A DNA stretch of 64,000 nt from the NCBI RefSeq assembly GCF_011734195.1, contig NZ_JAANTH010000002.1, positions 992,001 to 1,056,000 of the forward strand, given 5' to 3'. Under the pieces are notes generated by a model. That model had not been told where the DNA came from and ran no database searches. It saw only the letters and a list, made by a program, of their open reading frames with translations. Of this stretch, positions 23,737-40,537 are shown piece after piece (the first letter of the stretch is position 1; each line of letters starts with the position of its first letter). Made by a program: the position numbers and the translations under genes. The DNA comes from Halobacterium sp. R2-5. GTDB lineage: Archaea > Halobacteriota > Halobacteria > Halobacteriales > Halobacteriaceae.

Positions 23737-24522
23737 TCACTCGGTGATGGTGTGGACGTTCACCTCGGCGATGTTCGACGCCCGGATGACCGATTCGGCG
23801 AGGTCGGTCTCGGCCTCGTCGGCGTTCAGCCGGCTCGTCGGCCCGGAGACCGAGATGGCGCCGAGCACGTCGCCGCCGCTGGTCGTCACCGGCGCGCCGA
23901 CCGCGCGGATGCCCACCATCTGCTCCTCGTCGTTGACGGAGTACCCCTGCTCGCGCACCCGCTCTAAGTCCTCGAAGAGCTCCTCGCGCGTGGTCATCGT
24001 CTGGGGCGTCCGCTGAACCATCCCGTGGCGGTCGACGATCGCTTCGACGCGCTCCTCGTCGAGCTGCGAGAGTATCGCCTTGCCGACCGCCGTGCAGTGG
24101 TGGTGCGAGATCGGCTCCTCGCGCTTCCGCGTGTGGTACTCCGTCCCGACGGCGTTCTCGCCGAACGTCTCGTACAGCGTCACTAGCCGCCCGTCGTGCT
24201 CGACGACGAGGTGCGCGCACTCCCCCGTCTCCTCGGCGAGCCTGTCGACCTCCTCCTCGGCCGCCCGGTAGATGCGGCTCTTGTTCCGGACGTGCTCGCC
24301 GAGCGGGAGCAGCAGCGGCCCCAGCCGGTACTCGTCGCCGTCCTGGACGACGTAGCCGCGCTGCTTGAGCGTCGTCAGGTGCGTGTGGACCGACCCCGGC
24401 GACAGCGTCGAGTACTCCGCGACCTCGGAGACGGTCGCCTCGTTGACGTCCCGGAGGTACTCCAGGATCTCGAAGGCGTTCTCCACCGACTTCACCGTGC
24501 GAACGCGGGTTTCCTCTGTCAT
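23737..24522 (-). CDS. IclR-family transcriptional regulator 2
   Basis: A 261-residue regulator, paralogous to the one at 16368. The winged HTH (about 10-68) contains TVSEVAEYSTLSPGSVHTHLTTLKQRGYV; the effector domain (about 85-255) contains AHLVVEHDGRLVTLYETFG, HCTAVGKAILSQL and VRAVGAPVTTSGGDVLGAISVSGP. The ATG at 24522 gives the usual N-terminus. It is divergent from the aldehyde dehydrogenase at 24652; a 15-bp palindrome 34-48 bp upstream of its start overlaps the expected core promoter, which suggests autoregulation plus control of the dehydrogenase. In Haloferax volcanii an IclR protein (XacR) controls the pentose genes, a fitting precedent. Confidence 0.9.
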   Translation of the reverse strand: MTEETRVRTVKSVENAFEILEYLRDVNEATVSEVAEYSTLSPGSVHTHLTTLKQRGYVVQDGDEYRLGPLLLPLGEHVRNKSRIYRAAEEEVDRLAEETGECAHLVVEHDGRLVTLYETFGENAVGTEYHTRKREEPISHHHCTAVGKAILSQLDEERVEAIVDRHGMVQRTPQTMTTREELFEDLERVREQGYSVNDEEQMVGIRAVGAPVTTSGGDVLGAISVSGPTSRLNADEAETDLAESVIRASNIAEVNVHTITE

Positions 24523-24555
24523 GGTAGACCAACCCACGCCAGCCCACTCATAGTT

Positions 24556-24570
24556 TTTGGTAAAACCAAA
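24556..24570. promoter_or_regulatory. 15-bp palindrome, copy 3 (TTTGGTAAAACCAAA), IclR2/ALDH divergent promoter
   Basis: Six-base arms TTTGGT and ACCAAA separated by AAA; one mismatch from the perfect form. Located between the divergent starts of IclR 2 (24522) and the aldehyde dehydrogenase (24652). A TATA-like AAAAACTTAT at about 24615-24624 serves the dehydrogenase (28-37 nt before its ATG). This is the most convincing operator candidate of the three. Confidence 0.6.
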
Positions 24571-24651
24571 CGCGGGGCGCTCGGCGCGAGCGACTGTCAC
24601 ACGGGCGCTCCCACCAAAAACTTATCCGGATATCGGTGCTTCTCGTGAACG

Positions 24652-26121
24652 ATGACTGCCAACCGCCAGCGCGGCCTCTACGTCGACGGGGAGTGGCGCA
24701 CCGACACCGGCGATGACATCGAGAGCGCGAACCCGGCCGACGCCGCGGAAGTCGTCGGCGTCGTCGCGAAGGGCGACAGGGACACCGCGGTCGAAGCCAT
24801 CGACGCCGCGAACGACGCACAGGACGCGTGGCGCGGCCTCTCCGCACACGACCGCGGAGCGTACCTCCACGACGCCGCCGACGTCGTCGAGTCCCGGTTC
24901 GACGAGCTGACCGAACTCGTCTCCCGCGAGATGGGCAAGACCAGGGGCGCGGCGAGCGGCGAACTCCAGCGCACCGTCGACCTGCTCAACTACTACGCCG
25001 AGGTCGCACGGGACGCGGGCGGCATCGCGCCGCCGAGCGCGAGCGACGACACGGTCGCGTACACCACCCGCGAGCCGTGGGGGACGGCCGCGATAATCAC
25101 GCCGTGGAACTACCCCATCGCGATTCCGACGTGGAAGATCGCGCCCGCGCTCGTCGCCGGCAACGCGGTCGTGTTCAAGCCCGCCTCGCAGACGCCGACG
25201 GTCGCCGGCGAACTCGTCGCGGCGTTCGACGAGGCCGGCCTCCCGGACGGCGTGCTGAACTTCGTCCCGGGGTCGGGCAGCGAGGTCGGTGACGAACTCA
25301 CGACGAACGACGGCGTCGACGTCGTCTCGTTCACCGGGAGCTACGAGGTCGGCAGCAGCGTCGAGCAGGCCGCCGCGGACGCCGGCAAGCGCGTGCAGTG
25401 CGAGATGGGCGGGAAGAACCCCCTGATCGTCGACGAGACCGCGGACCTCGACCTCGCCGTCGACCTCACCGTACAGGGCGGACTCAGCGGGCTCTCCGGG
25501 CAGGCGTGCACGGCGACGAGCCGCGTGCTCGTCTTCGAGGACGTCGCCGACGACTACCTCGACCGCCTGCTCGACCGCGTCGACTCCCTCGAAGTCGGTG
25601 ACCCCCTGGACGACGTTGACATGGGTCCGAAGTCCTCGGAGGCCGAGATGGACAGCGACCTCGAGTACATCGACATCGCGGAGGACGAGGGCGCGACGCT
25701 CGCGGCGGGCGGCGGGCGCCTCACCGGCGACGGCTACGACGACGGCTACTTCGTCGAGCCGACCATCTTCACGGACGTCGACCCCGAGATGCGCATCGCC
25801 CAGGAGGAGGTGTTCGGTCCCGTCGTCTCCGTCATCGAAGTCTCGGACTACGAGGAGGCCGTGGAGGTCGCGAACGGCGTCGACTACGGCCTCTCGGCGT
25901 CCATCTGCACGAACCGCCTCGACCGCGCCAAGGAGTTCGTCGGCGACGTCGAGACCGGCCTCGTGAAGGTCAACCAGACGACCACGGGCGTCGAGATGCA
26001 GATGCCGTTCGGCGGCCGCAAGCACTCCAGCACGGAGACGTTCAAAGAACAGGGTCGGCAGGCGCTGGACTTCTACACCCACGAGAAGGCCGTCTACGTC
26101 ACGCACTACGACGGCGAATAG
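24652..26121 (+). CDS. Aldehyde dehydrogenase (2-oxoglutarate semialdehyde dehydrogenase-like)
   Basis: A 489-residue NAD(P)-dependent aldehyde dehydrogenase. Landmarks: PWNYPIAIPTWKIAPAL (cofactor-binding region), SFTGSYEVG, catalytic Glu251 in CEMGGKNP, nucleophile Cys286 in SGQACTATS, and EEVFGPVVSVI. Length and pattern are typical of the NADP-type semialdehyde dehydrogenases. Sitting beside a KdxD-like enzyme and an IclR regulator, it most likely oxidises 2-oxoglutarate semialdehyde to 2-oxoglutarate, the last Weimberg step. Glyceraldehyde- or lactaldehyde-type substrates are not excluded. Confidence 0.88.
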   Translation: MTANRQRGLYVDGEWRTDTGDDIESANPADAAEVVGVVAKGDRDTAVEAIDAANDAQDAWRGLSAHDRGAYLHDAADVVESRFDELTELVSREMGKTRGAASGELQRTVDLLNYYAEVARDAGGIAPPSASDDTVAYTTREPWGTAAIITPWNYPIAIPTWKIAPALVAGNAVVFKPASQTPTVAGELVAAFDEAGLPDGVLNFVPGSGSEVGDELTTNDGVDVVSFTGSYEVGSSVEQAAADAGKRVQCEMGGKNPLIVDETADLDLAVDLTVQGGLSGLSGQACTATSRVLVFEDVADDYLDRLLDRVDSLEVGDPLDDVDMGPKSSEAEMDSDLEYIDIAEDEGATLAAGGGRLTGDGYDDGYFVEPTIFTDVDPEMRIAQEEVFGPVVSVIEVSDYEEAVEVANGVDYGLSASICTNRLDRAKEFVGDVETGLVKVNQTTTGVEMQMPFGGRKHSSTETFKEQGRQALDFYTHEKAVYVTHYDGE

Positions 26122-26129
26122 ACCCCCTC

Positions 26130-26909
26130 CTACTCGTCGAAGGCGCTGTTGGCGAACCCGCCGTCGACGGTGAGCACCTCGCCCGTAGTATAGGACGCGG
26201 CGTCGCTGGCGAGGTAGATGGCGGCGCCGACGAGCTCCTCTGGCTCACCGATGCGCCCAGTCTCGGTCTTCGCTTCGACCGCCCGGCGGCGCTCGGTGCC
26301 CTCGGCGTACGCGTCGGCGGTCTGGGGTGTCAGGATGAACCCGGGTCGAATCGCGTTCACACGGATCTCCGGGCCGAACTCCTTGGCGGCGACGCGCGTG
26401 TACGAGTCGGTGCCGCCCTTCGCCGCGGAGTACGCCGCGGTTTCGGGCATCGCGAGCGTCGCGCCCATCGAGGAGATGGTCACGATGCTTCCGGAGTCCA
26501 TCGCGGACTGGAACACCTGGCACGCGCGGTGGACGCCCGTCAACTGGACGTCGAGGACGTGGCCCCAGTCGCTCTCGGAGACCGACGCGATGGGTTCCCG
26601 GGCGATGGCGCTCGGGGACGCGACCAGCACGTCCACGCCGCCCAGTTCCTCGACGGTGCGCTCGCGCAGTTCGACCAGGGACTCGCGGTCGGTCACGTCG
26701 CAGGTCTCGACGACCGTCTCGGCACCGCGCTCGCGGAGTTCCGCGGCCGTCTCCTCGACCGCGGACGCTGTCCGGCTCGATGCCACGACGTCGGCGCCGT
26801 CCGCGGCGAACCCGAGCGCGATGGCACGGCCGATGCCGCTCGTCCCTCCGATGACGACCGCTCGCTTCCCCTCGACCGTCACCGGACTGCTGGCGCTCCC
26901 GTCAGTCAT
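26130..26909 (-). CDS. SDR-family oxidoreductase B (atypical NNAG motif)
   Basis: A 259-residue short-chain dehydrogenase: GGTSGIG nucleotide loop, ETCDVTD, ITISSMGA (Ser), YSAAK (catalytic Tyr/Lys), VNAIRPGFILTPQT and LTVDGGFANSAF. Where most SDRs have NNAG, it reads VLVASPSAIAREP, so the structural Asn of strand beta-4 is replaced. Catalytic Ser, Tyr and Lys are intact. It ends only 9 bp from the convergent aldehyde dehydrogenase. The substrate is unknown; a role in the surrounding sugar/acid pathway is inferred from position. Confidence 0.85.
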   Translation of the reverse strand: MTDGSASSPVTVEGKRAVVIGGTSGIGRAIALGFAADGADVVASSRTASAVEETAAELRERGAETVVETCDVTDRESLVELRERTVEELGGVDVLVASPSAIAREPIASVSESDWGHVLDVQLTGVHRACQVFQSAMDSGSIVTISSMGATLAMPETAAYSAAKGGTDSYTRVAAKEFGPEIRVNAIRPGFILTPQTADAYAEGTERRRAVEAKTETGRIGEPEELVGAAIYLASDAASYTTGEVLTVDGGFANSAFDE

Positions 26910-26971
26910 ACCGCCAGATGTCGCGTGACTCCACTTAGTTCGTTGGGTGGGCGAGCAGGAACGCGCTGGAC

Positions 26972-27760
26972 TCAGAGGTTCGACGAGCCCGCTCCGCCGT
27001 CGATGGTCACCGTCTCGCCGTTGATGTAGCCGGCCTGCGGCGACGAGAGGAACGCGACGGTGCGCCCGAGCTCCATCGGGTCGCCCGTCCGTCCGACGGG
27101 AATCCCGGTCCGGTGGTCTTCGAGGCCGTCCTGATAGTCCTCGTAGTCGCCGCGCTCGACGCCCTGCTCGATGACTTCCTCGACGCGCGGCGTCTCGTGG
27201 ACCCCCGGGAGCACGGCGTTCGCGCGCACGTCGGGCGCGAGTTCCTTCGAGAGCGTCTTCTCGAGGCCGATGACACTCATGCGGACGGAGTTCGAGAGGA
27301 CGAGGCCGTCGATGGCTTCCTTCACGCTGCTGGACGCGATGTTGACGATGGTGCCGCCGCCGTCCTGGAGGGACTCGGCAGCCTCGTGGACGAGGCGGAC
27401 GACGCTCATCACGAGCAGGTCGTAGGCGTCGTACCAGTCGCCCTCCGTCTTCTCGAGGAACGGCCCGCTCGGCGGGCCGCCGGCGTTCGTCACGAGGTGG
27501 TCGACGGTCCCGAACTCCTCGACCGTTCGCTCGACGAGCGCCTCGATGTCCGAAGGCTCGGTGAGGTCGCCCACCTGGCCGACGACGTCGCCGTCGGCGT
27601 CCTCGCGGACGTCTTCGACGGCTGCCTGGAGGCGGGCCTCGTCGCGGCTGTTCATCACGACGTTCGCGCCCTCCTGTGCGAGCGCCCTCGCGGACGCCTT
27701 CCCGAGGCCGCTGCTCGACGCCGTTACCAGTGCTGCGTCGCCCTGGAGTTGCAAGTCCAT
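26972..27760 (-). CDS. SDR-family oxidoreductase C (NAGGPP subfamily lacking YxxxK)
   Basis: A 262-residue SDR starting MDLQLQGDAALVTASSSGLG. The NNAG region reads VTNAGGPPSGPFLEK, and the catalytic region reads LVLSNSVRMSVIGLEKTLS: the usual Tyr and Lys of YxxxK are replaced by Ser and Arg. This combination (NAGGPP plus SNxxR) defines a known SDR subgroup, so it is not decay, but its chemistry is poorly defined. A TATA-like element at 27784-27793 (24-33 nt before the ATG at 27760) supports the start. The upstream iron alcohol dehydrogenase on the same strand ends 71 bp away. Confidence 0.83.
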   Translation of the reverse strand: MDLQLQGDAALVTASSSGLGKASARALAQEGANVVMNSRDEARLQAAVEDVREDADGDVVGQVGDLTEPSDIEALVERTVEEFGTVDHLVTNAGGPPSGPFLEKTEGDWYDAYDLLVMSVVRLVHEAAESLQDGGGTIVNIASSSVKEAIDGLVLSNSVRMSVIGLEKTLSKELAPDVRANAVLPGVHETPRVEEVIEQGVERGDYEDYQDGLEDHRTGIPVGRTGDPMELGRTVAFLSSPQAGYINGETVTIDGGAGSSNL

Positions 27761-27830
27761 AGCTACCAATCCACTCGGACGGCGTATAAATATTCACCCC
27801 GGGCGTTCCGAGAACGAGCCGCGTGGTCGG

Positions 27831-29006
27831 TTACAGCGCGTTCCGGTAGATCTGCACGACGTCGTCGCGGTCGAGGTCGCGGGGGTTGCGGTCGATGTTG
27901 TGCTGGGAGTACTCGAAGGCGATGTCCGTGAACGACTCCAGTTCCGCCTCGTCGAGGTCGCCGAGGTGGCCGATGGAGGTCGGGATGCCGACGTCCTCGG
28001 TGAGCTCGAAGACGGCGTCGACGCTCGCGTACGCCCGGTCGAGCGTCGACCCCTCGGCGTCCGCGCCGAGCAGGTCGGCGACGTCCGCGAAGCGCTCGGT
28101 CTCGGCGGGGACGTTGTACTCCATCACGTGCGGGAGCAGCATCGCGTTCGCGCGGCCGTGGCCGACGCCGTACTCGGAGCCCAGCGGGTACGTGAGCGCG
28201 TGGACAGCGCCGAGCCCGGAGTTCACGAACGCCTGGCCGGCGACCGTGGCTGCGAGGCTCATCTGGTAGCGCGCCTCGTCGTTGTTCCCGCCCTGGAGGA
28301 CCGCGCCGCGGAGGTTCGAGCCGATCATCCGGATGGCTTCCCGCGCGAGGATGTCCGAGTACGGCGTCCGCAGCGTGGAGACGTAGCTCTCGACGGCGTG
28401 CGTGAGCGCGTCCAGGCCCGTCGCGGCGGCGACCGGCTTCGGCAGCGAGCGCGTGAGTTCGGGGTCGACGACGGCGAGGTCCGCGAACAGCGCCGCGTCG
28501 TAGACGACGCGCTTGACGCCCTCGCTGTCGGAGAACACGCCGATGTGCGTCACCTCGCTGCCGGTGCCGGCGGTCGTCGGGACGAGCGCGAGCGGGCGGC
28601 CCGCGCCGGGGACGTTACCCATCCCGAGCGTGTCCGTGATGGGGACGTCGTGCTCCGCGAGCGCGGAGGAGAGCTTCGCCGTGTCGAGGACGCTCCCGCC
28701 GCCCACCCCTACCACGACGTCGTGGCCACCGTCTCGGAGCACGTCCGCGGCGTCCTCGACCATCGAGAGCTTCGGCTCGGGCTTCACGTCGGTGAAGAAG
28801 TCGACTGAGGCGCCGGCGTCCTCCAGCGCCGCGACGACCGGGTCGGTCACGCCCGCGCCGACGATGTTCTCGTCGGAGACGACGAGCGCGCTGTCGGCGT
28901 CGGCGGCGAACGCCGTCAGCTCCGCGGTGGCGTCGAACCCGTACGCGATGCGGTCTGGACTCTGGACGTCGTAGGTGCTGCTGCGGGAGGCTAACCCATC
29001 GAGCAT
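27831..29006 (-). CDS. Iron-containing (group III) alcohol dehydrogenase
   Basis: A 391-residue metal-dependent alcohol dehydrogenase. Landmarks: GVGGGSVLDTAKLSS (NAD(P) loop), PTTAGTGSEVTHIGV, and the iron-binding Asp/His set in TGLDALTHAVESY and GAVHALTYPLGSEYGVGHG. Members include lactaldehyde reductase, 1,3-propanediol, butanol and hydroxy-acid dehydrogenases. In this context it could reduce lactaldehyde or oxidise a short hydroxy acid or alcohol from sugar breakdown (inferred). On the minus strand, CTTATATTT lies about 25-33 nt before the ATG at 29006, fitting a leaderless transcript divergent from the 2-hydroxyacid dehydrogenase. Confidence 0.9.
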   Translation of the reverse strand: MLDGLASRSSTYDVQSPDRIAYGFDATAELTAFAADADSALVVSDENIVGAGVTDPVVAALEDAGASVDFFTDVKPEPKLSMVEDAADVLRDGGHDVVVGVGGGSVLDTAKLSSALAEHDVPITDTLGMGNVPGAGRPLALVPTTAGTGSEVTHIGVFSDSEGVKRVVYDAALFADLAVVDPELTRSLPKPVAAATGLDALTHAVESYVSTLRTPYSDILAREAIRMIGSNLRGAVLQGGNNDEARYQMSLAATVAGQAFVNSGLGAVHALTYPLGSEYGVGHGRANAMLLPHVMEYNVPAETERFADVADLLGADAEGSTLDRAYASVDAVFELTEDVGIPTSIGHLGDLDEAELESFTDIAFEYSQHNIDRNPRDLDRDDVVQIYRNAL

Positions 29007-29028
29007 GATTCGGTAATCCAGCTAACCG

Positions 29029-29070
29029 GAAATATAAGTTGCGGCACGCGGTACCACGATACTGGTTACC
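29029..29070. promoter_or_regulatory. Divergent promoter with inverted repeat (iron ADH / hydroxyacid dehydrogenase)
   Basis: AAATATAAG at about 29031-29039 can serve both directions. Downstream of it, GGTACCA (29050-29056) and TGGTTACC (29063-29070) form an imperfect inverted repeat with a one-base bulge, located near the expected transcription start of the plus-strand gene (start 29077). A candidate operator; the binding protein is unknown. Confidence 0.35.
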
Positions 29071-29076
29071 ACTCCT

Positions 29077-30054
29077 ATGCCTTCGTCGAACCCCGACGTC
29101 GTCGTGCTTCGCGGAACGGCCCACGGGATGTCCAGCGAGCGCGCCGCCCGGCGGCTGCGCGAGCACTTCCCGGAGAAAGACGTTCGCCTCGCGGGGACGC
29201 CCCGGGAGGAGCGAGAACTCGTGAACGCAGCGCCCGTCGCGACCGGCCTCAGGCTCGACCCGGAGGTGCTCGCGAACGCGGACTCGCTGCGGCTGTTCGC
29301 CGCGGCGTCGGCGGGCGTCGACCACCTGCCGCTGGACGAGCTCGCGGAGAGGGGCGTCGCCGTGACGAACGCCTCCGGCGTCCACGCACCGAACATGGCC
29401 GAACAGGTGCTCGGGGACGTTCTGGTGTTCGCGCGGAACCTCCACGAGGGGTGGCGCCGGCAGTCGAACAGCGAGTGGCGCCACTTCCGCGGCGGCGAAC
29501 TCAACGGGAGCACCGTCACCGTCGTCGGGATGGGCCCCATCGGCGAACGCACGCTGGAACTCCTCGCCCCGTTCGACGTCGAACGCGTGGGCGTCCGGTA
29601 CACGCCCGAGAAGGGCGGGCCGGCCGACGAGGTTCTGGGGTACGACGACGACCTCCACGAGGTGTTCTCGCGGTCGGACTACGTCGTGCTCGCGTGCCCG
29701 CTCACCGACACCACGGCGGGCCTCGTCGACGAGCAGGTGTTCCGGACGCTGCCGCCGGACGCCGTCGTCGTGAACGTCGCGCGCGGCGGCGTCGTCGACA
29801 CGGAGGCGCTCGTCGCGGCGCTGCGCGGGAACAAGATCCGGGGTGCGGCCCTCGACGTCACCGACCCCGAACCGCTACCCGAGGACCACCCGCTCTGGAC
29901 GCTGGAGAACGCGCTCGTCACGCCGCACAACGCCGGCGGCACCGACGAGTACTGGGAGCGCCACGCCGACATCCTCGCGCGGAACCTCGAACGCGTCGAC
30001 GAGACCGGCTCGTACGCCGACCTCGAGAACCAGGTGGTCGCGCCCGACGACTGA
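29077..30054 (+). CDS. D-2-hydroxyacid dehydrogenase (NAD-dependent)
   Basis: A 325-residue D-isomer-specific 2-hydroxyacid dehydrogenase. VVGMGPIGERTLELL is the NAD-binding GxGxxG; the catalytic Arg lies in VNVARGGVVDT, the Glu in DVTDPEPLPEDHPLW, and the His in VTPHNAGGT. It reduces a 2-keto acid (glyoxylate, hydroxypyruvate or pyruvate type) to the D-hydroxy acid or the reverse. The start at 29077 gives MPSSNPDVVVLRG. It is followed at 62 bp by the E1 alpha gene, which has its own TATA-like box. A link to the surrounding 2-keto-acid chemistry is likely. Confidence 0.9.
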   Translation: MPSSNPDVVVLRGTAHGMSSERAARRLREHFPEKDVRLAGTPREERELVNAAPVATGLRLDPEVLANADSLRLFAAASAGVDHLPLDELAERGVAVTNASGVHAPNMAEQVLGDVLVFARNLHEGWRRQSNSEWRHFRGGELNGSTVTVVGMGPIGERTLELLAPFDVERVGVRYTPEKGGPADEVLGYDDDLHEVFSRSDYVVLACPLTDTTAGLVDEQVFRTLPPDAVVVNVARGGVVDTEALVAALRGNKIRGAALDVTDPEPLPEDHPLWTLENALVTPHNAGGTDEYWERHADILARNLERVDETGSYADLENQVVAPDD

Positions 30055-30116
30055 GGCACCTCGTCACACACTGACACACCACAACCTATTTTTCCGTCGT
30101 TCGTGATTCCCCCACC

Positions 30117-31247
30117 ATGGCAAAGTGGACCGAATCACGACCCGACGAGGACTTCTCCCGGGTGCTCGCGCCGGACGGCACGCTGTCCGGGGAGGCGCCC
30201 GTCGACGAGGCGACGGCGCTACGGATGTACGAGACGATGAAGCTCTCCCGGCGTTACGACGAGAAGATGCTGAGCCTCCAGCGCCGCGGCGAGATCAGCA
30301 TCCTCTCGCGGAGCTGGGGCGAGGAGGCGATTCCCGTCGGGAGCGCGGCCGCCCTCGAGGCGGGCGACTGGTGTTTCCCGACGTACCGGCAGACCCCGAG
30401 CAAGCTCTACTGGGGCGGCCCGCTCGACCGCGCGGTCGCGGGCCTGATGGGCCACGAGCCCGAGACCATCGAGGAACACCTCCCGCTCGACGAGGCCGAC
30501 GAGCCGGCGGTGAACTTCTCGCCCATCTACATCCCGCTGGCCGCGAACGTCACGAACGCCGTCGGCTCCGCGATGGCCGACAAGTTCGAGGACGGGAACA
30601 CGGTGACGCTGTCGTACATCGGCGACGGGTCGACCAGTCAGGGGGACTTCTACGAGGCGCTGAACTTCGCGGGCGTCTTCGACGCGCCCGCGGTCACCAT
30701 CTGTCACAACAACCAGTGGGCCATCTCCGTGCCCTCGCACCGCCAGACCGCCGCGGACACGTTCGCGCAGAAGGCCGAGGCGGCGGGGATGCCCCACGAG
30801 CGCGTCGACGGCAACGACGTGTTCGCGGTGTACGCGGCGACCCAGCGCGCCGTCGAGCGCGCTCGGAGCGGCGAGGGACCGACGCTGCTGGAGTGCGTGA
30901 CCTACCGCGTCGACGACCACAACACCGCCGACGACGCGGGCGCGTACCGCGACGAATCCGAGCAGGAGTTCTGGGCGGAGCGCGACCCGGTCGACCGCCT
31001 CGAAGCCTACCTCCGCTCGGAGGACGCCCTCGACGACGAGGCCATCGAGGCCATCGAGGCGGACGCCGACGAGCGCGTCGAGGAAGCGGTCGACCGCGCC
31101 CGCGACGTCCCCGAGGACGACCCCGAGCGCATCTTCGACAACCACCTGCAGTCCGAGTCGTGGAACGAGCGCCACCAGCGCGAGGAGCTCCGGGCCGAGC
31201 AGCGCGGCGAGAACCCCTTCACGGACTTCACGGGTGATGGGCTGTGA
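30117..31247 (+). CDS. 2-oxoacid dehydrogenase E1 component, alpha subunit
   Basis: A 376-residue thiamine-diphosphate enzyme subunit. The TPP motif is clear from about residue 169: GDGSTSQGDFYEALNFAG, then FDAPAVTICHNNQWA. The phosphorylation-loop-like YRVDDHNTADDAG region follows. With the beta subunit it forms the E1 heterotetramer that decarboxylates a 2-oxoacid (pyruvate, branched-chain or acetoin-type). TATA-like CCTATTTTTC (about 30085-30094) supports a leaderless start at 30117. Its stop overlaps the beta subunit start (GTGA). No E2 or E3 gene follows, which is unusual for a dehydrogenase complex. Confidence 0.9.
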   Translation: MAKWTESRPDEDFSRVLAPDGTLSGEAPVDEATALRMYETMKLSRRYDEKMLSLQRRGEISILSRSWGEEAIPVGSAAALEAGDWCFPTYRQTPSKLYWGGPLDRAVAGLMGHEPETIEEHLPLDEADEPAVNFSPIYIPLAANVTNAVGSAMADKFEDGNTVTLSYIGDGSTSQGDFYEALNFAGVFDAPAVTICHNNQWAISVPSHRQTAADTFAQKAEAAGMPHERVDGNDVFAVYAATQRAVERARSGEGPTLLECVTYRVDDHNTADDAGAYRDESEQEFWAERDPVDRLEAYLRSEDALDDEAIEAIEADADERVEEAVDRARDVPEDDPERIFDNHLQSESWNERHQREELRAEQRGENPFTDFTGDGL

Positions 31248-32245
31248 GCGCCGACTACGCCGACGGCGAGACCAGCGAGGTGAACCTCGTGACCGCCGTC
31301 CGCGACACGCTCGCCCAGGAGATGCGCCGCGACGAGAACGTCCGCCTGCTGGGCTACGACATGGGTCCCATCGGCGGCGTGTTCCGCGCGACGGAGGACC
31401 TCTACGAGGAGTTCGGCGAGGACCGCGTCATCGACACGCCGCTCTCCGAGAACGGGATTCTGGGCGCGGCCGCGGGGATGGCGATGCGCGGCCAGCGCGT
31501 CGTCCCCGAGATCCAGTTCCTCGGGTTCTTCTACCCCGCGTTCGGCCAGTTCATGTACACCATCTCGAAGATGCACGAGCGCTCCGGCGGCGCGTTCGAG
31601 ATGCCACTGACCGTGCGGATTCCGTACGGCGGCGGCATCAAGTCCAGCGAGTACCACTCCGAGTCCACGGAGAGCTTCTTCGTCCACACGCCCGGCGTCC
31701 GCGTGGTCTGCCCGAGCACGCCCGCGGAGACGAAGGGCCTGCTCGCCGCGTCCATCCGCAGCGACGACCCGGTGATGTTCCTCGAACCGAAGGCCGTCTA
31801 CCGCACCGGCACGCAGGAGGTCCCGGAGGCGGAGTACACGCTCCCGCTGGACGAGTCCCGGACGGTCCGTGAGGGCTCGGACGTCACCGTGCTGACGTGG
31901 GGCGCGATGGTCCGGCACGCGGAGACGGCGGCAGACCAGGTGGACGCTGACGTCGAGATTCTCGACCTGCGGACGCTGTCGCCGCTGCCCGTCGACGCCG
32001 TCCTCGACTCGGTGAAGAAGACGGGGCGCTGCGTCGTCTTCCACGAGGCGCGCCGCACGCTCGGCCTCGGCGCAGAGCTCTCGGCGCTCGTCAACGAGTA
32101 CGCCATCGACCACCTGAAGGCGCCCATCAAGCGCGCGACGGGCTACGACGTCCACTTCCCGAGCCACCAGACCGAGGAAGCGTACCTGCCGGACGAGCAG
32201 CGCGCCGCCCACGCCATCGAGGCCGTCACGTCCTACGAGTACTAG
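31244..32245 (+). CDS. 2-oxoacid dehydrogenase E1 component, beta subunit
   Basis: A 333-residue transketolase-type subunit. VNLVTAVRDTLAQEMRRDENV, DTPLSENGILGAAAGMAMRG, QFLGFFYPAFGQFMYTISKM and VTVLTWGAMVRHA are typical of PdhB/BkdA2/AcoB proteins. It starts with GTG overlapping the alpha subunit stop by 4 bp, so both chains are made in equal amounts. The next gene downstream is a thioesterase, not a lipoyl acyltransferase; the complex would need E2/E3 from elsewhere, or the E1 may act alone. Confidence 0.9.
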   Translation: MSADYADGETSEVNLVTAVRDTLAQEMRRDENVRLLGYDMGPIGGVFRATEDLYEEFGEDRVIDTPLSENGILGAAAGMAMRGQRVVPEIQFLGFFYPAFGQFMYTISKMHERSGGAFEMPLTVRIPYGGGIKSSEYHSESTESFFVHTPGVRVVCPSTPAETKGLLAASIRSDDPVMFLEPKAVYRTGTQEVPEAEYTLPLDESRTVREGSDVTVLTWGAMVRHAETAADQVDADVEILDLRTLSPLPVDAVLDSVKKTGRCVVFHEARRTLGLGAELSALVNEYAIDHLKAPIKRATGYDVHFPSHQTEEAYLPDEQRAAHAIEAVTSYEY

Positions 32246-32300
32246 GCCGGCGCCCGCTGTCGGGGCAAGCTATTTTCTCCGCGGCCCGGATGGTGAGGGT

Positions 32301-32708
32301 ATGCCCGAGTACACGTACGAAATCGAACTGGAGCCCCAGTACCGCGACCTCGATCCGAACGGCCACGTGAACCAGGCGGTGTACGCGAGCTACTGCGAGC
32401 AGGCGCGCGCGAACTACTGGGCGGACGTCATCGGCCAGCGCCACGACCGCGCGGAGCTCGTGATGGTGCAAAGCGAGATGGAGTTCGCGGCGGAGATCCG
32501 CCTCGGGCAGACCGTCACCGTCCGCCAGCGAATCGGCGAGCTCGGGGACACCAGCATCCCCATCGACTACGAGGTGCGCGTGGACGGCGAGCCCGCCGCG
32601 ACCGGCTCCGTGGTGTTGCTGTCCTACGACCGCGACGCCCGCGAGCCAGCCCCGATTCCCGACGAGTGGCGGACCGCTATCGAGGAACACGAGGGCCACG
32701 ACGCGTGA
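32301..32708 (+). CDS. Acyl-CoA thioesterase, 4-hydroxybenzoyl-CoA thioesterase (hotdog) family
   Basis: A 135-residue hotdog-fold protein. YRDLDPNGHVNQAVYASYCEQAR is the 4HBT/YbgC-type signature, with the Asp and following Gly-His-Val-Asn that shape the active site. MVQSEMEFAAEIRLGQTVTVRQRI and GSVVLLSYDRDAREPAPIPDEWR complete the fold. It hydrolyses acyl-CoA to free acid and CoA; the substrate is unknown. It lies 55 bp after E1 beta in the same direction and may remove acyl-CoA made by the 2-oxoacid dehydrogenase (inferred). Confidence 0.88.
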   Translation: MPEYTYEIELEPQYRDLDPNGHVNQAVYASYCEQARANYWADVIGQRHDRAELVMVQSEMEFAAEIRLGQTVTVRQRIGELGDTSIPIDYEVRVDGEPAATGSVVLLSYDRDAREPAPIPDEWRTAIEEHEGHDA

Positions 32709-32735
32709 GCGGACGGAGAAGGAGGGAAACGGCGG

Positions 32736-34220
32736 CTACGCCCTGTTGAACCGCTCGGCGATGAACGGCGTGAACAGCGACAGCGCCGCCAGCAGGAGGA
32801 TCCCCATCGCGAGCGGGCTGGTGTAGAAGATGTCCAGCGAGCCGCCCGAGAGCTGCAGCGACCGCCGGAGGTTGTTCTCCGCGATGGGTCCGAGAATCAA
32901 CCCCAGCACGATTGGCGCGAGCGGGTAGTCCTCCATGCGCAACACGAACCCGATGATGCCGGCGATGATCATCGTCCAGACGTCGATGACGTTGCCGTTC
33001 AGCGCGAACGAGCCGACGACACAGAGCACGATGATGACCGGCCAGAGGTACTCCGGCGGGAAGTTGATGACCCGCACCCAGAGGTGCGCGCCGAGCAGCC
33101 CCGCGACGAGGATGACGACGTACACGAGGAAGAACCCGACGAAGATGGAGAACACGAGCCCGGTCTCGTCCTCGAACAGCCCCGGCCCGGGGCGGATGCC
33201 GTGGACGAGCAGCGCGCCGATGAGGATGGCGGTCACGGAGTCCCCGGGGATGCCGAGGGTGAGCGTCGGCACGAGCGCGCCGCCCGTGCTCGCGTTGTTC
33301 CCCGCTTCGGCGGCGGCGACGCCGCGGACGTTCCCCTCGCCGAACGGCGGCTTCGCCTTGCTCGCCCAGCGCTTGGCCTCGTTGTACGTGACGAACGACG
33401 CGATGTCGCCGCCCGCGCCGGGCAGCGCGCCGACGAACGTCCCGATGAGGCTGGAGCTCACCGTGACGTTCCGGATCTCGTTCACGTCGCCGAACGAGGG
33501 GACGATGCTAGAGAGCTCCTGCTCGACGGAGATCTCGGAGATCCCCTCGCGGTAGCGGTTGAACGCCTCCGCGAGTCCGAACAGCCCGATCATCACGGCG
33601 ATGAACTGGATGCCGGAGGTCAGCGCCGGGACGCCGAACGAGAACCGCGGGTAGCCGGTCGTCGGGTCGATGCCGACGGTGGCGATGAGCATCCCGAGCA
33701 GCCCGGTTATCATGCCCTTCGTGATGGAGTCGCCGCTGACGTTCGCGATGATGGTGAGCCCGAAGAACGCGAGCGCGAAGTACTCCGGCGACCGGAACTC
33801 CAGCGCGAACTGCGCGATCTGCGGGGAGATGAACGTGATGAGGATGATGCTGATTGCGCCGCCGACGAACGACGCGAGCGTCGCGATGCCGATGGCGCGG
33901 CCCGCCTGCCCCTGCTGGGACAGCGGGAACCCGTCGAAGATGGTCGCCGCGGCGCTCGGCGTGCCGGGCGTCCGAATCAGGATGGCGGGAATCGACCCCG
34001 CGAACAGCGCGCCGCCGTAGATGCCGAGCAGGAGCATCATCCCCTCCGTGGGGTTCATCCCGAACGTGAACGAGACGAGCACGCCGACGGTCATCGTCGC
34101 GGTCATCCCGGGAATCGCGCCCATCACGATGCCGATGAACACGCCGAACACGATGAGCGCGAGCGGCAGCGGCTGGAAGACGAGCGCGGCGCCCTCGACG
34201 ATACCCGCGAAGATGTTCAT
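32736..34220 (-). CDS. Tripartite tricarboxylate transporter, large membrane subunit (TctA family)
   Basis: A 494-residue polytopic membrane protein with about 11-12 hydrophobic segments. PGMTATMTVGVLVSFTFGMNPTEGMMLLLGIYGGALF and GALPGAGGDIASFVTYNEAKR are the two TctA family signatures (Gly/Pro-rich re-entrant regions). It is the last gene of a tctC-tctB-tctA set on the minus strand. TTT systems import carboxylates (citrate and other di- and tricarboxylates, sugar acids, aromatic acids) using an ion gradient and an extracytoplasmic binding protein. Given the neighbouring sugar-acid enzymes, an aldonate or similar acid is a reasonable guess. Confidence 0.92.
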   Translation of the reverse strand: MNIFAGIVEGAALVFQPLPLALIVFGVFIGIVMGAIPGMTATMTVGVLVSFTFGMNPTEGMMLLLGIYGGALFAGSIPAILIRTPGTPSAAATIFDGFPLSQQGQAGRAIGIATLASFVGGAISIILITFISPQIAQFALEFRSPEYFALAFFGLTIIANVSGDSITKGMITGLLGMLIATVGIDPTTGYPRFSFGVPALTSGIQFIAVMIGLFGLAEAFNRYREGISEISVEQELSSIVPSFGDVNEIRNVTVSSSLIGTFVGALPGAGGDIASFVTYNEAKRWASKAKPPFGEGNVRGVAAAEAGNNASTGGALVPTLTLGIPGDSVTAILIGALLVHGIRPGPGLFEDETGLVFSIFVGFFLVYVVILVAGLLGAHLWVRVINFPPEYLWPVIIVLCVVGSFALNGNVIDVWTMIIAGIIGFVLRMEDYPLAPIVLGLILGPIAENNLRRSLQLSGGSLDIFYTSPLAMGILLLAALSLFTPFIAERFNRA

Positions 34221-34248
34221 CGCGGCACCTCCGCGCGGAGGCGCGGCG

Positions 34249-34752
34249 TCACGCGAGTCCCACCCCGGTGAGTAGCCCGGGTAGCAGCCGGCTGATCGGG
34301 AGAATCGCGCTCTCTGGGAGGGGGACGCGCAGGAACTGCACGAAGATGTAGTAGAGCGCGATGGCGACGCCGATGGACACGGGTATCGACGTCCGGAACC
34401 CGTCGACGCCCGAGAAGTGCATACTCAGGAGGAGAAAGACGACGGTGCCGGCGAGGAAGCCGAAGTACGGCATCGTGAGCACGTAGCCGACGACGAGCGC
34501 GGCGGCGACGGCGACGGTCTTCACGGTCGACCGCGAGATCTCCACCGTGCGCGGTTCACCCTTCCGCGTCGCTTTCACCAACTGGACGAGCGCGAACACC
34601 GACATCAGGCCGACGATGACTCGCGGGAAGAACGCGGGCCCGGTCGCGCCGTAGCCGGCGGGGAAGTCCGTCGTGAGGTAGAAGGTGGCGGCGGTCAGCA
34701 CGAAGACGAGCCCGCTGGCGACCTTGTCGGTATGGCTGAGCTTGAGGGTCAT
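34249..34752 (-). CDS. Tripartite tricarboxylate transporter, small membrane subunit (TctB family)
   Basis: A 167-residue protein with four predicted transmembrane helices (about 12-30, 38-58, 76-108 split by a short loop, and 120-140). The N-terminus DKVASGLVFVLTAATFYLTT is family-like. TctB is poorly conserved in sequence; the identification depends on size, topology and its place between tctC (48 bp gap) and tctA (28 bp gap). Confidence 0.85.
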   Translation of the reverse strand: MTLKLSHTDKVASGLVFVLTAATFYLTTDFPAGYGATGPAFFPRVIVGLMSVFALVQLVKATRKGEPRTVEISRSTVKTVAVAAALVVGYVLTMPYFGFLAGTVVFLLLSMHFSGVDGFRTSIPVSIGVAIALYYIFVQFLRVPLPESAILPISRLLPGLLTGVGLA

Positions 34753-34800
34753 GTGGAGTTCATTGGAAAGATGGGGGAGATTTGCGGCGGTTCGACGGGG

Positions 34801-35802
34801 TCAGACGTCGACGTTGTCCGTAATCTCGTCGAAGCTCTCGTAGGACTGCTGCATGAAGTCCCCGAACTCCTCGATGTCGCGGTGGACGAGGCCGAAGCCG
34901 CTCTCCTGCATCCACGACTGGAAGTCGTCGGACTCGTACACGTCGTAGTAGCCCTCGTACAGCTGGTCGATGACGTCGTCGGGCGTGTCGTTCGGGACGC
35001 CGAGGCCGCGCCACGCGCCCATGGTGAAGTCGACGTCCTGCTCCTGGAGCGTCGGGACGTCGGGCATGATGTCGACGCGCTCCTCGCCGAAGACGGCCAG
35101 CGTCGTCAGCGGGCCGTCCTCGACCTGCCCGAGCACCTCGGGGGCGCTCGACGTCGTCGCTTCGACCTCGCCGTTGACGACGGCCTGCGTCGCCGGGGCG
35201 CCGCCGTCGTAGCCGACGTGTTCGAGTTCGATGCCGGCTTCCTGGGCGAACCCGACGGCCGACAGGTGCCAGATGCCGCCCGGACCGGAGTTCGAGACGC
35301 TGATCTCGCCGGGGTTGTCGTTCGCGTAGTCGATGAACTCCCCGAGGGTGCTGTAGGGGGCGTCCTCGTGGACGGTGAGCGCCGCCGGGTCGAAGTTGTA
35401 CTGCATCACGGGCTTGACGTCCTCGTGGTTCACGTCGGCGATGCCGAGGTGCGAGATGGTGGTGATCTCGACCGTGAGTACGCCGACCGTGTAGCCGTCG
35501 GGTTCCGCGTTCGCGATGGCGTTGAACCCGACGCTGCCGGTGCCGCCCGTCTGGTTCTCGACGTACGCGTCGACGTCCCAGGTTTCGCTGAGCCCGCTGG
35601 CCAGCTGCCGTCCCGTCTGGTCCGTCCCGCCGCCTTCGGCCCACGGACAGATCATCCGGATGTCCTCGTTGGGGAAGTTCTGGCTGCCGCCACCGCCGCC
35701 GGACAGCGAGTTACAGCCGGCGAGTCCGGCCATGGTGACTGCCGATCCTGCGCCCGCTGCTTTCACGAAATCGCGCCTGCTTAACACGGTATCTCTTACC
35801 AT
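34801..35802 (-). CDS. Tripartite tricarboxylate transporter substrate-binding protein (TctC family)
   Basis: A 333-residue exported binding protein. LSRRDFVKAAGAGSAVTMAGLAGC is a twin-arginine lipoprotein signal with lipid-attachment Cys30, followed by a Gly-rich linker. The mature part shows TctC/Bug landmarks: IRMICPWAEGGGTDQTGRQLA, VENQTGGTGSVGFNAIANAEPDGYTVG and TMGAWRGLGVPNDTP. It captures the carboxylate outside the membrane and delivers it to TctAB. The UspA gene at 35935 is divergent from it across 132 bp, a linkage seen for other binding-protein-dependent secondary transporters. Confidence 0.92.
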   Translation of the reverse strand: MVRDTVLSRRDFVKAAGAGSAVTMAGLAGCNSLSGGGGGSQNFPNEDIRMICPWAEGGGTDQTGRQLASGLSETWDVDAYVENQTGGTGSVGFNAIANAEPDGYTVGVLTVEITTISHLGIADVNHEDVKPVMQYNFDPAALTVHEDAPYSTLGEFIDYANDNPGEISVSNSGPGGIWHLSAVGFAQEAGIELEHVGYDGGAPATQAVVNGEVEATTSSAPEVLGQVEDGPLTTLAVFGEERVDIMPDVPTLQEQDVDFTMGAWRGLGVPNDTPDDVIDQLYEGYYDVYESDDFQSWMQESGFGLVHRDIEEFGDFMQQSYESFDEITDNVDV

Positions 35803-35934
35803 ACGAGACTTCGATTCACACTAATGTTAATTAAGCTTTTCCCACATCCGAGTCGGGGCCGCTACCGGTCGATTCGGGACGAAGCCGGAATTTCGTACAA
35901 ACGATTTATGGTCGGATGGCGTGAATCGGGGGGT

Positions 35935-36378
35935 ATGCCAGTCGTCGTAGCCATCGACCGCTCCGACAGCGTCGAGAACCTCGTCGCGGAGGCGGCGAAG
36001 CTGAGCGACCGCTTCGACACCGAGCTCCACGTCGTCCACGTGGCCGGCCAGTACGAGACCACCGAGCGCGTGCGCCTGGAAGCCATCGACGGGTCCACAG
36101 ACCCCGTGGAGATGGACGACGAGGAACGCGCCCGGACGCACGCGGAGAGCGTCGCCGCCGCGGTCACGGACTCGTTCACGCCCGTCGGCCTCGTCGGCTA
36201 CCCGGAGAACGAGATTCTCCGCTACGCCGACGAACACGACGCGGAGTACATCGTCATCGGCGGCCGGAAGCGCTCGCCGATCGGGAAAGCCCTCTTCGGG
36301 AGCACCGCCCAGGCCATCCTGCTGGACGCCGACCGTCCCATCGTGACGGTCCCGCCGGTCGGGGACGCCGAGGACTGA
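35935..36378 (+). CDS. Universal stress protein UspA (transporter-linked)
   Basis: A 147-residue UspA protein: MPVVVAIDRSDSVENLVAEA at the start, and IVIGGRKRSPIGKALFGSTAQ as the C-terminal nucleotide motif, with Lys where the second Gly of GxxG is usual. TATA-like CGATTTATG (35902-35910) lies 25-33 nt upstream, giving a leaderless start at 35935 and arguing against longer versions. It is divergent from the TctC gene. In Halomonas, TeaD (a UspA) regulates the TeaABC TRAP transporter; a similar role here is inferred from position only. Confidence 0.88.
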   Translation: MPVVVAIDRSDSVENLVAEAAKLSDRFDTELHVVHVAGQYETTERVRLEAIDGSTDPVEMDDEERARTHAESVAAAVTDSFTPVGLVGYPENEILRYADEHDAEYIVIGGRKRSPIGKALFGSTAQAILLDADRPIVTVPPVGDAED

Positions 36379-36440
36379 CCCCCAACTACTTGTGGAGTTC
36401 CACCAATGACTAGGCGAACGCGCCCCCCGGAGAGACACCC

Positions 36441-37469
36441 ATGAGAGCTATCGTCCAGACCGGAACGAGGGAAGTCGAGGTACAGCAGCGCGACAAGCCG
36501 ACGCCGGACGCCGACCAGGTGCTCGTCGAGGTGCACAGCGCGGGCCTCTGCGGCAGCGACGCCCACGCCTACACGTACGAGGACGGCTACAAGTGGATTC
36601 CAATCCCGCGCGTCATGGGCCACGAGTACGCCGGCACCGTCGTCGAAGTCGGCGACGGCGTCACCGGGCTCTCGGTCGGCGACAACGTCGTCGAGGAGCC
36701 GATTCACAGCTGCGGCGAGTGCTTCCAGTGCAAGAACGGCCAGCCGAACGTCTGCCAGAACTTCTCCATCACGGGCATGCACCGCGACGGCGCGTACGCG
36801 GAGTACGTCGCCGTCGACGCGTCGTCCGTCCACCGCATCCCGGACTCGGTCCCGCTCGAACACGCGGCCATCACGGAACCGACGAGCATCGCGACCCGCG
36901 CCGTGTTCACGCAGTCCTCGGTGACCCCCGGGGACAACGTTCTCGTCGAGGGCCCGGGCCCGATTGGCGTCCTGACCGCCGTCGTCGCCGACTCGATGGG
37001 CGCGAACGTCCTCGTCTCCGGGCTCGAAGCGGACACGCGGTACCGCCTCCCCCTCCTGGCGGACATCGGTGTCGACACCGTCAACGTCCAAGACGGGGAC
37101 CTCGACGACCGCCGCGAGGCGTTCACGGACGGCATCGGCTTCGACGCGGTCTTCGACACGACCGGCCACCAGTCCGGCGTCGAGATGGCCGTCGACCACG
37201 TCCGGAAGGGCGGCGAGGTAGTCGTCGTCGGCCTCCCCGGAGCGCCCAGCGAGGTGTTCATGACGCCCGTCGTCCGCGGCGAAATCACCGTCCAGACGTC
37301 GTACGGCTCCGCGTGGCGGAACTTCGAGCAGGCAATTCGCCTGATGGAGAACGGCGCCGTCGACGTCGACGCCATCGTCGACCGCTCCTACAGCGTCGAC
37401 GACCCGACCGCCGCCTTCGAGGGGTTCCTGAACTCCGAGACCTGCAAGCCCGTGTTCACGTTCGCCTAG
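36441..37469 (+). CDS. Zinc-dependent alcohol/polyol dehydrogenase (MDR family)
   Basis: A 342-residue medium-chain dehydrogenase. Catalytic zinc ligands are in AGLCGSDAHAY (Cys) and MGHEYAG (His-Glu). The structural zinc site is complete in HSCGECFQCKNGQPNVC (four Cys). VEGPGPIGVLTAVVADSMGA is the NAD(P) loop. It resembles threonine, sorbitol or sugar dehydrogenases of COG1063. The surrounding genes suggest oxidation of a sugar or sugar alcohol. Its 3' end overlaps the convergent aldo-keto reductase by 4 bp. Confidence 0.9.
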   Translation: MRAIVQTGTREVEVQQRDKPTPDADQVLVEVHSAGLCGSDAHAYTYEDGYKWIPIPRVMGHEYAGTVVEVGDGVTGLSVGDNVVEEPIHSCGECFQCKNGQPNVCQNFSITGMHRDGAYAEYVAVDASSVHRIPDSVPLEHAAITEPTSIATRAVFTQSSVTPGDNVLVEGPGPIGVLTAVVADSMGANVLVSGLEADTRYRLPLLADIGVDTVNVQDGDLDDRREAFTDGIGFDAVFDTTGHQSGVEMAVDHVRKGGEVVVVGLPGAPSEVFMTPVVRGEITVQTSYGSAWRNFEQAIRLMENGAVDVDAIVDRSYSVDDPTAAFEGFLNSETCKPVFTFA

Positions 37470-38278
37470 TTCCGCCAGCGCGCGTACTCGCGGTCGATGA
37501 TGCGGTGCTCGCGCTCGATGCCGTCGATTCTCTCGACGTCTTCGCCGTCGAGGTCGAGGTCGCGGGCCGCGAGGTTGTCCCGCATGTGCGCCTCGCTGGA
37601 CGCCTTCGGGATGGCAGCGACGTTCTCCTTGGAGAGCAGCCACGCCAGCGACACCTGCGCGGGCGAGGCGTCGTGCTTCTCCGCGACCGCCTGAACCTCC
37701 GGCACGTCGAAGACCTCGCCCTGCGCGAGCGGGCAGAACGCGACGACCCAGTGGTCGTGCTCGCGGGCGTACTCGCGGAGCTCCTCCTGCTGGAGGAGCG
37801 GGTGGCACTCGATCTGGTTCGCGGCGATCGGCGCGTCCAGCACCTCGCGGGCGGTGTCCAGCGTCTCCGGCTCGAAGTTCGAGACGCCGACGTGCTCGAT
37901 CTTCCCGTCGTCGTAGAGCTCCTGGAACGCCCCCAGCGTCGTCTCCGGGTCGTACGGGTCGGCGGGCCAGTGGACGTACAGGAGGTCGACGTAGTCCGTC
38001 CGCAGCCTGTCGAGGCTGCCGTCGACCATCGAGAGCACGTCCTCGCGCTCCGGCACGGGCGAGTCCGGGTGGGCGACCTTCGTCGCGAGGAACACGTCGT
38101 CGCGGTCGACGCTCGCGGCCTCCAGGCCGGCGCCGACGTACTGCTCGTTGTCGTACGCCTCCGCGGTGTCGACGTGCCGGTAGCCCGCTTCGAGCGCCGT
38201 TCTCACGTTGTCCTCCCACTGGTCCTTGTCGGTGTCCGAGTAGGTGCCGAGCCCGACACGCGGGATGTTGACAGTCAT
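37466..38278 (-). CDS. Aldo/keto reductase 2 (short, 2,5-diketo-gluconate reductase-like)
   Basis: A 270-residue AKR protein starting MTVNIPRVGLGTYSD. Tetrad: Asp and Tyr in HVDTAEAYDNE, Lys in FLATKVAHPD, and His in LLYVHWPADPYDP. The cofactor end reads VAAIPKASSEAHMRDNLAA. The length and the VGLGTY...EHVGVSNF pattern fit AKR family 5, which includes 2,5-diketo-D-gluconate reductases and general aldehyde reductases. It is followed on the same strand (upstream) by AKR 3 with 60 bp between. Substrate unknown. Confidence 0.88.
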   Translation of the reverse strand: MTVNIPRVGLGTYSDTDKDQWEDNVRTALEAGYRHVDTAEAYDNEQYVGAGLEAASVDRDDVFLATKVAHPDSPVPEREDVLSMVDGSLDRLRTDYVDLLYVHWPADPYDPETTLGAFQELYDDGKIEHVGVSNFEPETLDTAREVLDAPIAANQIECHPLLQQEELREYAREHDHWVVAFCPLAQGEVFDVPEVQAVAEKHDASPAQVSLAWLLSKENVAAIPKASSEAHMRDNLAARDLDLDGEDVERIDGIEREHRIIDREYARWRN

Positions 38279-38338
38279 ACTACCAGTCGCGGCGGCGGTT
38301 CTGTTAAGTGTAGCGGTGAGCGCGGCGCTGGCGGGCGC

Positions 38339-39331
38339 TCAGTTGTACCGGGAGTCGGACTGCCACGGGTCCGGGTTCGGGCCGAGCGCTTCCTTCAGGT
38401 CCGCGGTCGCGTCGTCGAGGTCGGCCAGCAGGTCCTCGGAGAGCGAGACGTCCGCGGCCGCCGCGTTCGCCCGCGCGTGCTCCGGCGAACTCGCGCCCGC
38501 GAGCACGGCGGTCACACCCGGCTGGTGGAGCGGCCACGCGAGCGCCACCTCGACCATGTCGCGGTCGTACTCCGCGCAGAGGTCCCGGATTCGCTCGACC
38601 GCCGCGAACGTCTCCGCCTCGGCGCCAGCCTCGCCGTGGCGCGCCCCCGGGCGGTCCCCCGAGAAGTGCCGCGTCCGCATCCGGCCCGTCGGGTACTCCT
38701 CGATCGACTCGTACTCGCCGGTGAGCAGGCCCTGCGCGAGCGGGCTGTACGCGACCAGGTCCACGTCCTCGTCCCGAGAGGCGTCCGCGACCCCGTACTC
38801 GATGGCGCGCCACAGGAGGTTGTACGGCACCTGATTCGCCTCCACGCGGCCCTCCGCGAGGGTCGCGTCGAGGTCTGCCGGCCCCGTGTTCGAGACGGCC
38901 GGCACCCGGATTTTCCCCTCCTCCTGCAGTTCCTTCATCGCGCGCATCGTCTCCGAAACCGGAATCTCGGGGTGCTGGTAGTGAACGTAGTAGACGTCCA
39001 CGTAGTCCGTGCCGAGCCTGTCGAGGCTCGCCTCGCAGGCCGCCTTCAGGTCGTCGTACGCGAGGTTGTCCTGCCACACCTTGCTCGCGACCACGACGTC
39101 GTCGCGGTCGAGGCCGTCGAGGGCCTCCCCCAGCACTTCCTCGGAGTAGCCGTCGCCGTACGCCTCCGCCGTGTCGAAGAACGTGACGCCGCTGTCGTAC
39201 GCCTCGTGGATGGTCTCGATGGCCTGGTCCTCGTCGGTCTTCTCCCAGTCGGAGCCGCCGCTGATGTTCCAGAGTCCGAGGCCGACGCGGCTCACCTCTA
39301 CGTCCGTCTGTCCGAGCGTCTCGTACTGCAT
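38339..39331 (-). CDS. Aldo/keto reductase 3
   Basis: A 330-residue AKR protein starting MQYETLGQTDVEVSRVGLGLWNISGG. Tetrad: Asp and Tyr in FFDTAEAYGDGYSEE, Lys in VVASKVWQD, and His in YVHYQHPEIPVSE. AVLAGASSPEHARANAAA is the NADPH-binding end. It resembles the YhdN/general stress protein 69 type. An in-frame GTG at 39355 is possible, but the ATG at 39331 matches the family start. Clustered with AKR 2 and the zinc dehydrogenase; the pathway role is unknown. Confidence 0.88.
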   Translation of the reverse strand: MQYETLGQTDVEVSRVGLGLWNISGGSDWEKTDEDQAIETIHEAYDSGVTFFDTAEAYGDGYSEEVLGEALDGLDRDDVVVASKVWQDNLAYDDLKAACEASLDRLGTDYVDVYYVHYQHPEIPVSETMRAMKELQEEGKIRVPAVSNTGPADLDATLAEGRVEANQVPYNLLWRAIEYGVADASRDEDVDLVAYSPLAQGLLTGEYESIEEYPTGRMRTRHFSGDRPGARHGEAGAEAETFAAVERIRDLCAEYDRDMVEVALAWPLHQPGVTAVLAGASSPEHARANAAAADVSLSEDLLADLDDATADLKEALGPNPDPWQSDSRYN

Positions 39332-39377
39332 CGCCCGGTACTTGTCAATCGTCACCGATTAACGTTCGGGTGGGTTC

Positions 39378-40448: not shown

Positions 40449-40537
40449 ACGCCCCGTTCGCACCCACCGCCCGAATAACTACGGGTCGTGCCGACGCGGA
40501 CCACAGTCTGATGTGGGTGCCCGCTGAACGTCCGGGC

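Follow-up and report, generated by a model that had tools for sequence, protein, structure and literature searches.

How does a 2-oxoacid dehydrogenase E1 persist in a genome that has lost the E2 made for it? The question is raised by a window of 64,000 nucleotides (C2:992001-1056000) from a 2.98-Mb haloarchaeal genome, assembled in 5 contigs and 99.13% complete. The window holds an E1 alpha/beta pair, and whole-genome searches placed no E2, lipoyl-domain, or lipoamide dehydrogenase match inside it, which bears out an earlier note on this DNA that had reported the E2 and E3 genes as absent. Two operons that are 88% identical, one with and one without E2, together with a second loss in the same clade, offer a near natural experiment.

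Intact genes for an alpha/beta-type E1

The E1 features of the window are as follows.

30117..31247, + strand: E1 alpha subunit of a 2-oxoacid dehydrogenase, 376 aa (PF00676, E = 1.7e-83)
30621..30713, + strand: codons of the ThDP-binding motif GDG..NN, E1 alpha residues 169-199, read from the sequence
31244..32245, + strand: E1 beta subunit, 333 aa, with a GTG start inside GTGA (PF02779, 2e-41; PF02780, 5.1e-31)

The pair has the E1_dh alpha and transketolase-like beta domains of an alpha/beta-type E1, with the ThDP motif. A cognate E2 (lipoyl, PSBD, and acyltransferase domains) does not adjoin it, and E2 and E3 are present somewhere in the genome. E1 alpha matches TIGR03181 at 8e-110 and 366.9 bits, under that model's cut-off of 411.35, and its GDG..NN motif is complete (residues 169-171 and 198-199). 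Coordinates, frames, and motif agree with the earlier description of two genes overlapping as GTGA with intact TPP motifs. In E1 beta, whose best solved relatives are 1ik6 and 2bp7, Glu69 and His138 both lie within conserved stretches, and from their position we take them to be the catalytic pair. In the Geobacillus E1 structure 1W85 (chain A), the residue opposite E1 alpha His268 in the alignment is His271. That histidine has been described as a switch, and His128 of the beta subunit as an acid/base residue (PMC2663715). By position, E1 beta His138 is probably equivalent to His128 of the Geobacillus enzyme, and the window E1 probably assembles as alpha2 beta2.

The pair is not closest to the acetoin dehydrogenase-type E1 (AcoAB) of its own genome. 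It is 32% (alpha) and 41% (beta) identical to the E1 of the C3 locus, which we read as acetoin-type, and 45% and 51% identical to that of the C1 operon.

Deletion of the E2 gene

The nearest orthologue of the window locus, 88% identical in nucleotides, is found in genome G105 (locus L057), from another family of the same order. There the order is short-chain dehydrogenase, iron-alcohol dehydrogenase, 2-hydroxyacid dehydrogenase, E1 alpha, E1 beta, E2, thioesterase, and Tct genes. The block is the same as in the window, mostly at 82 to 88% nucleotide identity, and differs by the E2, a protein of 451 aa (about 1.35 kb) with a single lipoyl domain, a single PSBD, and a single acyltransferase domain; its gene sits directly between those of E1 beta and the thioesterase. 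The window features on the far side of E1 beta are these.

32246..32260, no strand: deletion scar, 15 nt in place of the E2 gene of G105, with colinear alignment on both sides
32270..32277, + strand: AT-rich promoter-like box CTATTTTC, 5' of the thioesterase, retained beyond the deletion and shared with G105
32301..32708, + strand: 4HBT hotdog thioesterase, 135 aa (PF13279, 5.9e-19)

The two loci align colinearly as far as position 32245 of the window and 11128 of L057, where E1 beta stops, and again from 32261 and 12475, respectively. What was deleted begins at the E1 beta stop codon and ends just short of the promoter-like box, and the 15-nt filler has no clear counterpart. In G105 the start ATG of E2 lies inside the 3' end of the E1 beta gene; the window has ACG at that position. 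Relative to the 88% identical locus, the E2 gene has been deleted in the window lineage; the loss of E2 beside a kept E1 is a real oddity, and the deletion explains its origin.

An assembly artefact, with the E2 gene really present, is highly improbable. The assembly is nearly complete in few contigs and has no fourth E2. The stretches around the ends of the G105 E2 share a single 10-mer, off the breakpoints, so there is no obvious repeat to collapse, and both the filler and the change of ATG to ACG are seen at the window locus itself. Gain of E2 by G105 was rejected as the alternative to loss, via the E2 tree, in which the G105 E2 groups with the E2s of its clade and apart from the resident E2s, nearby supports being partly low. 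Displacement of the cognate E2 to another place in the genome was likewise rejected, because the three E2s found there are 30 to 41% identical to the lost type (the 41% covering the C-terminal part only) and two of the three lie in E1-E2-E3 operons of their own.

Distribution of E2 among orthologous loci

The clade of the window E1 is patchy: of 392 genomes from the order, 27 have E1 alpha matches at E <= 1e-95, as do 23 of 391 in a class sample that overlaps these. We compared 32 loci, namely, the window, 28 other order-wide places, one further record (L027), and loci L108 and L109, added from the class sample. A whole or partial E2 follows E1 beta in 29 of them (27 of the first 30 and both added loci); partial E2s lie at or near a contig end in L061, L064, L071, and L074. 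The three loci lacking it are the window and those of G115 and G205. E3 adjoins in 5 of the 32; a shared E3 encoded at a distance is therefore usual in this clade. The earlier description of the pair as orphaned of E2 and E3 alike therefore holds for E2, whose absence is exceptional and derived; the missing neighboring E3 is the rule of the clade. In eight loci (L067, L068, L070, L081, L082, L083, L084, and L109), E1 alpha and E1 beta are fused into one protein of 717 to 756 aa.

The window and G105 pair in the E1 tree with support of 1.000, as do G115 and G205 with 0.998 (1.0 and 0.996 with the added loci, several deeper nodes being weak). Because these are separate supported pairs, parsimony suggests that E2 was lost at least twice. 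G115 and G205 belong to different families, and both have intact E1 frames. If their shared E2 absence reflects one event, the loss predates their split, and the pair would be better evidence than dN/dS for use of E1 without a neighboring E2.

Retention of E1 after the loss

The E1 genes show no sign of decay. Between the window and G105, dN/dS was 0.18 for E1 alpha, 0.12 for E1 beta, 0.18 for the thioesterase, and 0.13 to 0.21 for four other genes; these pairwise values span time before the deletion and therefore show the lack of decay, not use, and give no proof of selection afterwards. Nor has E1 evolved faster on the window side. Relative-rate counts against seven outgroups gave 10 to 16 changes in the window versus 14 to 17 in G105 for alpha and 6 to 9 versus 7 to 9 for beta. 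The window exceeded G105 by one change in one outgroup per subunit and was equal or lower in the others, with no consistent excess on the window side across the seven. Near-invariant columns (113 and 128) held one window-only change per subunit, equal to G105.

These results bear on the reading that the locus is a relic, left by a recent deletion in a complex that no longer works, with E1 yet to decay. We consider this unlikely. Loss of E2 on the window tip, later than the split from G105, and a gene-clean deletion are compatible with a recent event, but both reading frames are intact and not accelerated, and G115 and G205 retain their E1 frames after a loss that, if one event, came before they diverged.

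A residue signature of E2-lessness was sought and rejected. E1 beta position 329 stood out (290 less clearly): of 26 E2-bearing loci, 25 have Met329, as have the two added ones, whereas the three E2-less loci have T, A, and T. The change could reflect a lost E2 contact; such columns arise by chance at a mean of 0.61 in beta and 0.87 in alpha (200 sets, each made up of a single locus and a sister pair), so the signal is within background.

Gene neighborhood and possible substrate

The earlier note had placed a hotdog thioesterase 55 bp after E1 beta and proposed a link between the two. The gap is as described, and the link is weak. A thioesterase relative lies within 10 kb of E1 in 2 of the 32 loci, the window and G105. 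The AT-rich 7-mer starts 31 nt before the thioesterase ATG (30 nt for E1 alpha). A 7-mer with at least 6 A/T in the region from -36 to -22 was found in 7 of 13 genes looked at and at 2.1% of random positions (3000 positions from window 16000-45000). Because of the 2 of 32 loci and its own promoter-like box, the thioesterase is not counted in the E1 system.

Other neighbors of E1 in the window are these.

24652..26121, + strand: aldehyde dehydrogenase, 2,5-dioxovalerate dehydrogenase-related (NF052305, 663.5 bits; cut-off, 750)
27831..29006, - strand: iron-containing alcohol dehydrogenase (PF25137/PF00465), also within 10 kb of E1 in G105 and G409
29077..30054, + strand: D-2-hydroxyacid dehydrogenase (PF02826, 5.2e-53)
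32736..35802, - strand: tripartite tricarboxylate transporter TctA, TctB, and TctC (TctC, PF03401, 1.4e-43; TctA and TctB named from sequence and position)

All three Tct genes are kept in G105. The block and the genes upstream of it also encode a fumarylacetoacetate hydrolase (FAH)-type protein resembling 2,4-didehydro-3-deoxyrhamnonate hydrolase, an enolase-superfamily dehydratase relative, and aldo-keto reductases; none of these, nor the aldehyde dehydrogenase, reaches an NCBIfam equivalog cut-off. Genes that by sequence reading resemble IclR-type regulators flank the sugar-acid-type genes (window 16368-17162 and 23737-24600).

The D-2-hydroxyacid dehydrogenase could be a source of 2-oxoacid for E1. 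Its relatives lie near E1 in 6 of the 32 loci, two of which are the origins of the two queries. Hydroxyacid dehydrogenase genes number 1 to 4 per genome in all eight genomes counted, and one lies within 9 kb of E1 in 5 of 30 loci (4 with the window and G105 counted once) versus about 0.4 expected by informal arithmetic. A sugar-acid-type set (enolase superfamily, HpcH/HpaI, DHDPS, FAH, and UxuA; tblastn at E <= 1e-12 in 10 kb around E1) gave matches near E1 in 6 of the 32 loci, among them the query-source loci L059, L061, and L108 and weak matches in the window (FAH, 34%) and L081 (26%). No such genes were found near E1 in the other 26, some of which end early at contig ends. The sugar-acid setting of E1 is suggestive only, and a hydroxyacid or sugar acid may plausibly give rise to the 2-oxoacid that E1 uses.

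Over window 23736-40576 and G105 C28:57254-81464, the catabolic block is mostly 82 to 88% identical in nucleotides, with gaps, while the resident E1-E2-E3 proteins of the two genomes share 54 to 81% amino acid identity. This disparity suggests that the block was exchanged horizontally between two haloarchaeal families.

A rival explanation is that the window E1, after losing E2, works as a stand-alone, nonoxidative 2-oxoacid decarboxylase or carboligase, whose aldehyde would pass to the neighboring aldehyde, iron-alcohol, and aldo-keto dehydrogenases. Such enzymes do occur in the same block, E2 has apparently been lost at least twice with E1 retained, and a further ThDP enzyme and a UxuA-like dehydratase are encoded close to E1 in G115. 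However, G105 combines the same aldehyde and iron-alcohol dehydrogenases with an E2, so they are no mark of E2 independence. Nor did any named active-site residue appear among the columns that separate the E2-less E1s (scanned at 75% or higher conservation among E2-bearing loci), and E1s release aldehyde slowly. We regard stand-alone activity as improbable, although it and the relic are the main competitors of the favored reading given below. A broader version, in which an E1 lineage with at least two E2 losses is now an E2-independent ThDP enzyme, the window's member residing in a horizontally spread catabolic block, strikes us as rather improbable.

Resident E2 and E3 proteins as possible partners of E1

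The genome of the window has 6 E1 alpha, 3 E2, and 3 E3 matches over the cut-off, and complete E1 alpha/E1 beta/E2/E3 operons lie at C1:270-275 kb and C2:1084-1089 kb. The genome-wide search for unpaired E2 and E3 genes suggested in the earlier note turned up possible partners, although not a displaced cognate E2. In 18 of 24 haloarchaeal genomes, this one included, there are more matches for E1 alpha than for E2 (17 of 24 by raw rows; the higher count takes the two-piece E2 of G160 once), which makes an unpaired E1 nothing unusual in this group.

The explanation that we favor, while granting that it could prove wrong as readily as right, is that the E1, its own E2 gene deleted, docks on a resident E2 and uses a resident E3. 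Borrowing of this kind had been raised in the earlier note; the three E2s and three E3s make it possible, and it is now the leading reading, with the docking itself presumed. E1 would keep its ThDP-dependent decarboxylation of a 2-oxoacid, supplied plausibly by the neighboring D-2-hydroxyacid dehydrogenase or by the sugar-acid-type enzymes. The acyl group would then pass to the lipoyl arm of the resident E2 at C1:271 kb or C2:1085 kb, each with two PSBDs, and a resident E3 would serve the assembly.

All three resident E2s of this genome have two E3_binding (PSBD) matches, as do those tested in G115, G205, and G088; the two stand in tandem in six of six resident haloarchaeal E2s compared (L021 7263-8744, L022 5300-6760, L023 6686-8563, L085, L086, and L088). 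The lost-type E2 has one in all three cases tested (G105, G111, and G409). The second PSBD could hold an extra E1. The identity of only 30 to 41% between resident E2s and the lost type speaks against borrowing; in its favor, G205, E2-less at its E1 locus, has one E2 match in the whole genome. In G115 the matches are one complete E2 and two partial ones, the latter within a single 289-aa frame.

Sharing of a resident E2/E3 core by an additional E1 would follow a known principle, by analogy with two described systems. Human DHTKD1 (E1a) and E1o use a common E2o core (PMC10003691). The likeness would lie in an E1 that shares the E2 of another complex, the window E1 having no E2 of its own; DHTKD1, however, is an E1 of the 2-oxoglutarate/2-oxoadipate type whose docking has been demonstrated, whereas that of the window E1 is presumed. 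In the PDH-ODH hybrid of Corynebacterium glutamicum, two E1s serve one E2-E3 core (PMC7568260). Its AceE and OdhA are of other types, whereas the window E1 is of the alpha/beta type and has lost a dedicated E2. Closer in taxonomy are the OADHCs of Haloferax volcanii, most of whose substrates are unknown (PMC8305020, PMC3235422). Both are haloarchaeal, with alpha and beta E1 subunits from one superfamily; the window E1 comes from a patchy clade and has lost its own E2. Among the literature matches listed, which extend partly beyond archaea and cover few subscription papers, none concerned E2 loss beside a retained haloarchaeal E1, and tandem-PSBD E2s returned one unrelated chloroplast paper only. 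Whether E1 persists by sharing E2 or by working alone is now directly testable, with a bearing on the excess of E1 over E2 genes in these haloarchaea and on the unknown substrates of most of their complexes.

A further route, in which E1 acylates a free 84-aa lipoyl protein (C2:244.7 kb, beside another E1 pair) in place of E2, has very little to recommend it. The lipoyl-only protein is present in the genome, but it has its own E1 alpha/beta alongside and no acyltransferase domain, and there was no sign of cross-use.

Three further observations concern loci of the window's own genome (G000). At C2:242-245 kb (L025 7295-9962), E1 alpha and E1 beta are followed by the 84-aa lipoyl-only protein, and no catalytic E2 adjoins. 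The E2 at C3:47 kb (L023 6686-8563) has, besides its two PSBDs, a fused C-terminal OsmC-like domain. An E1 alpha homologue at C2:208 kb (L024 7940-9010) has no E1 beta in the 16 kb covered, and frames resembling it in length and score occur in many members of the genus.
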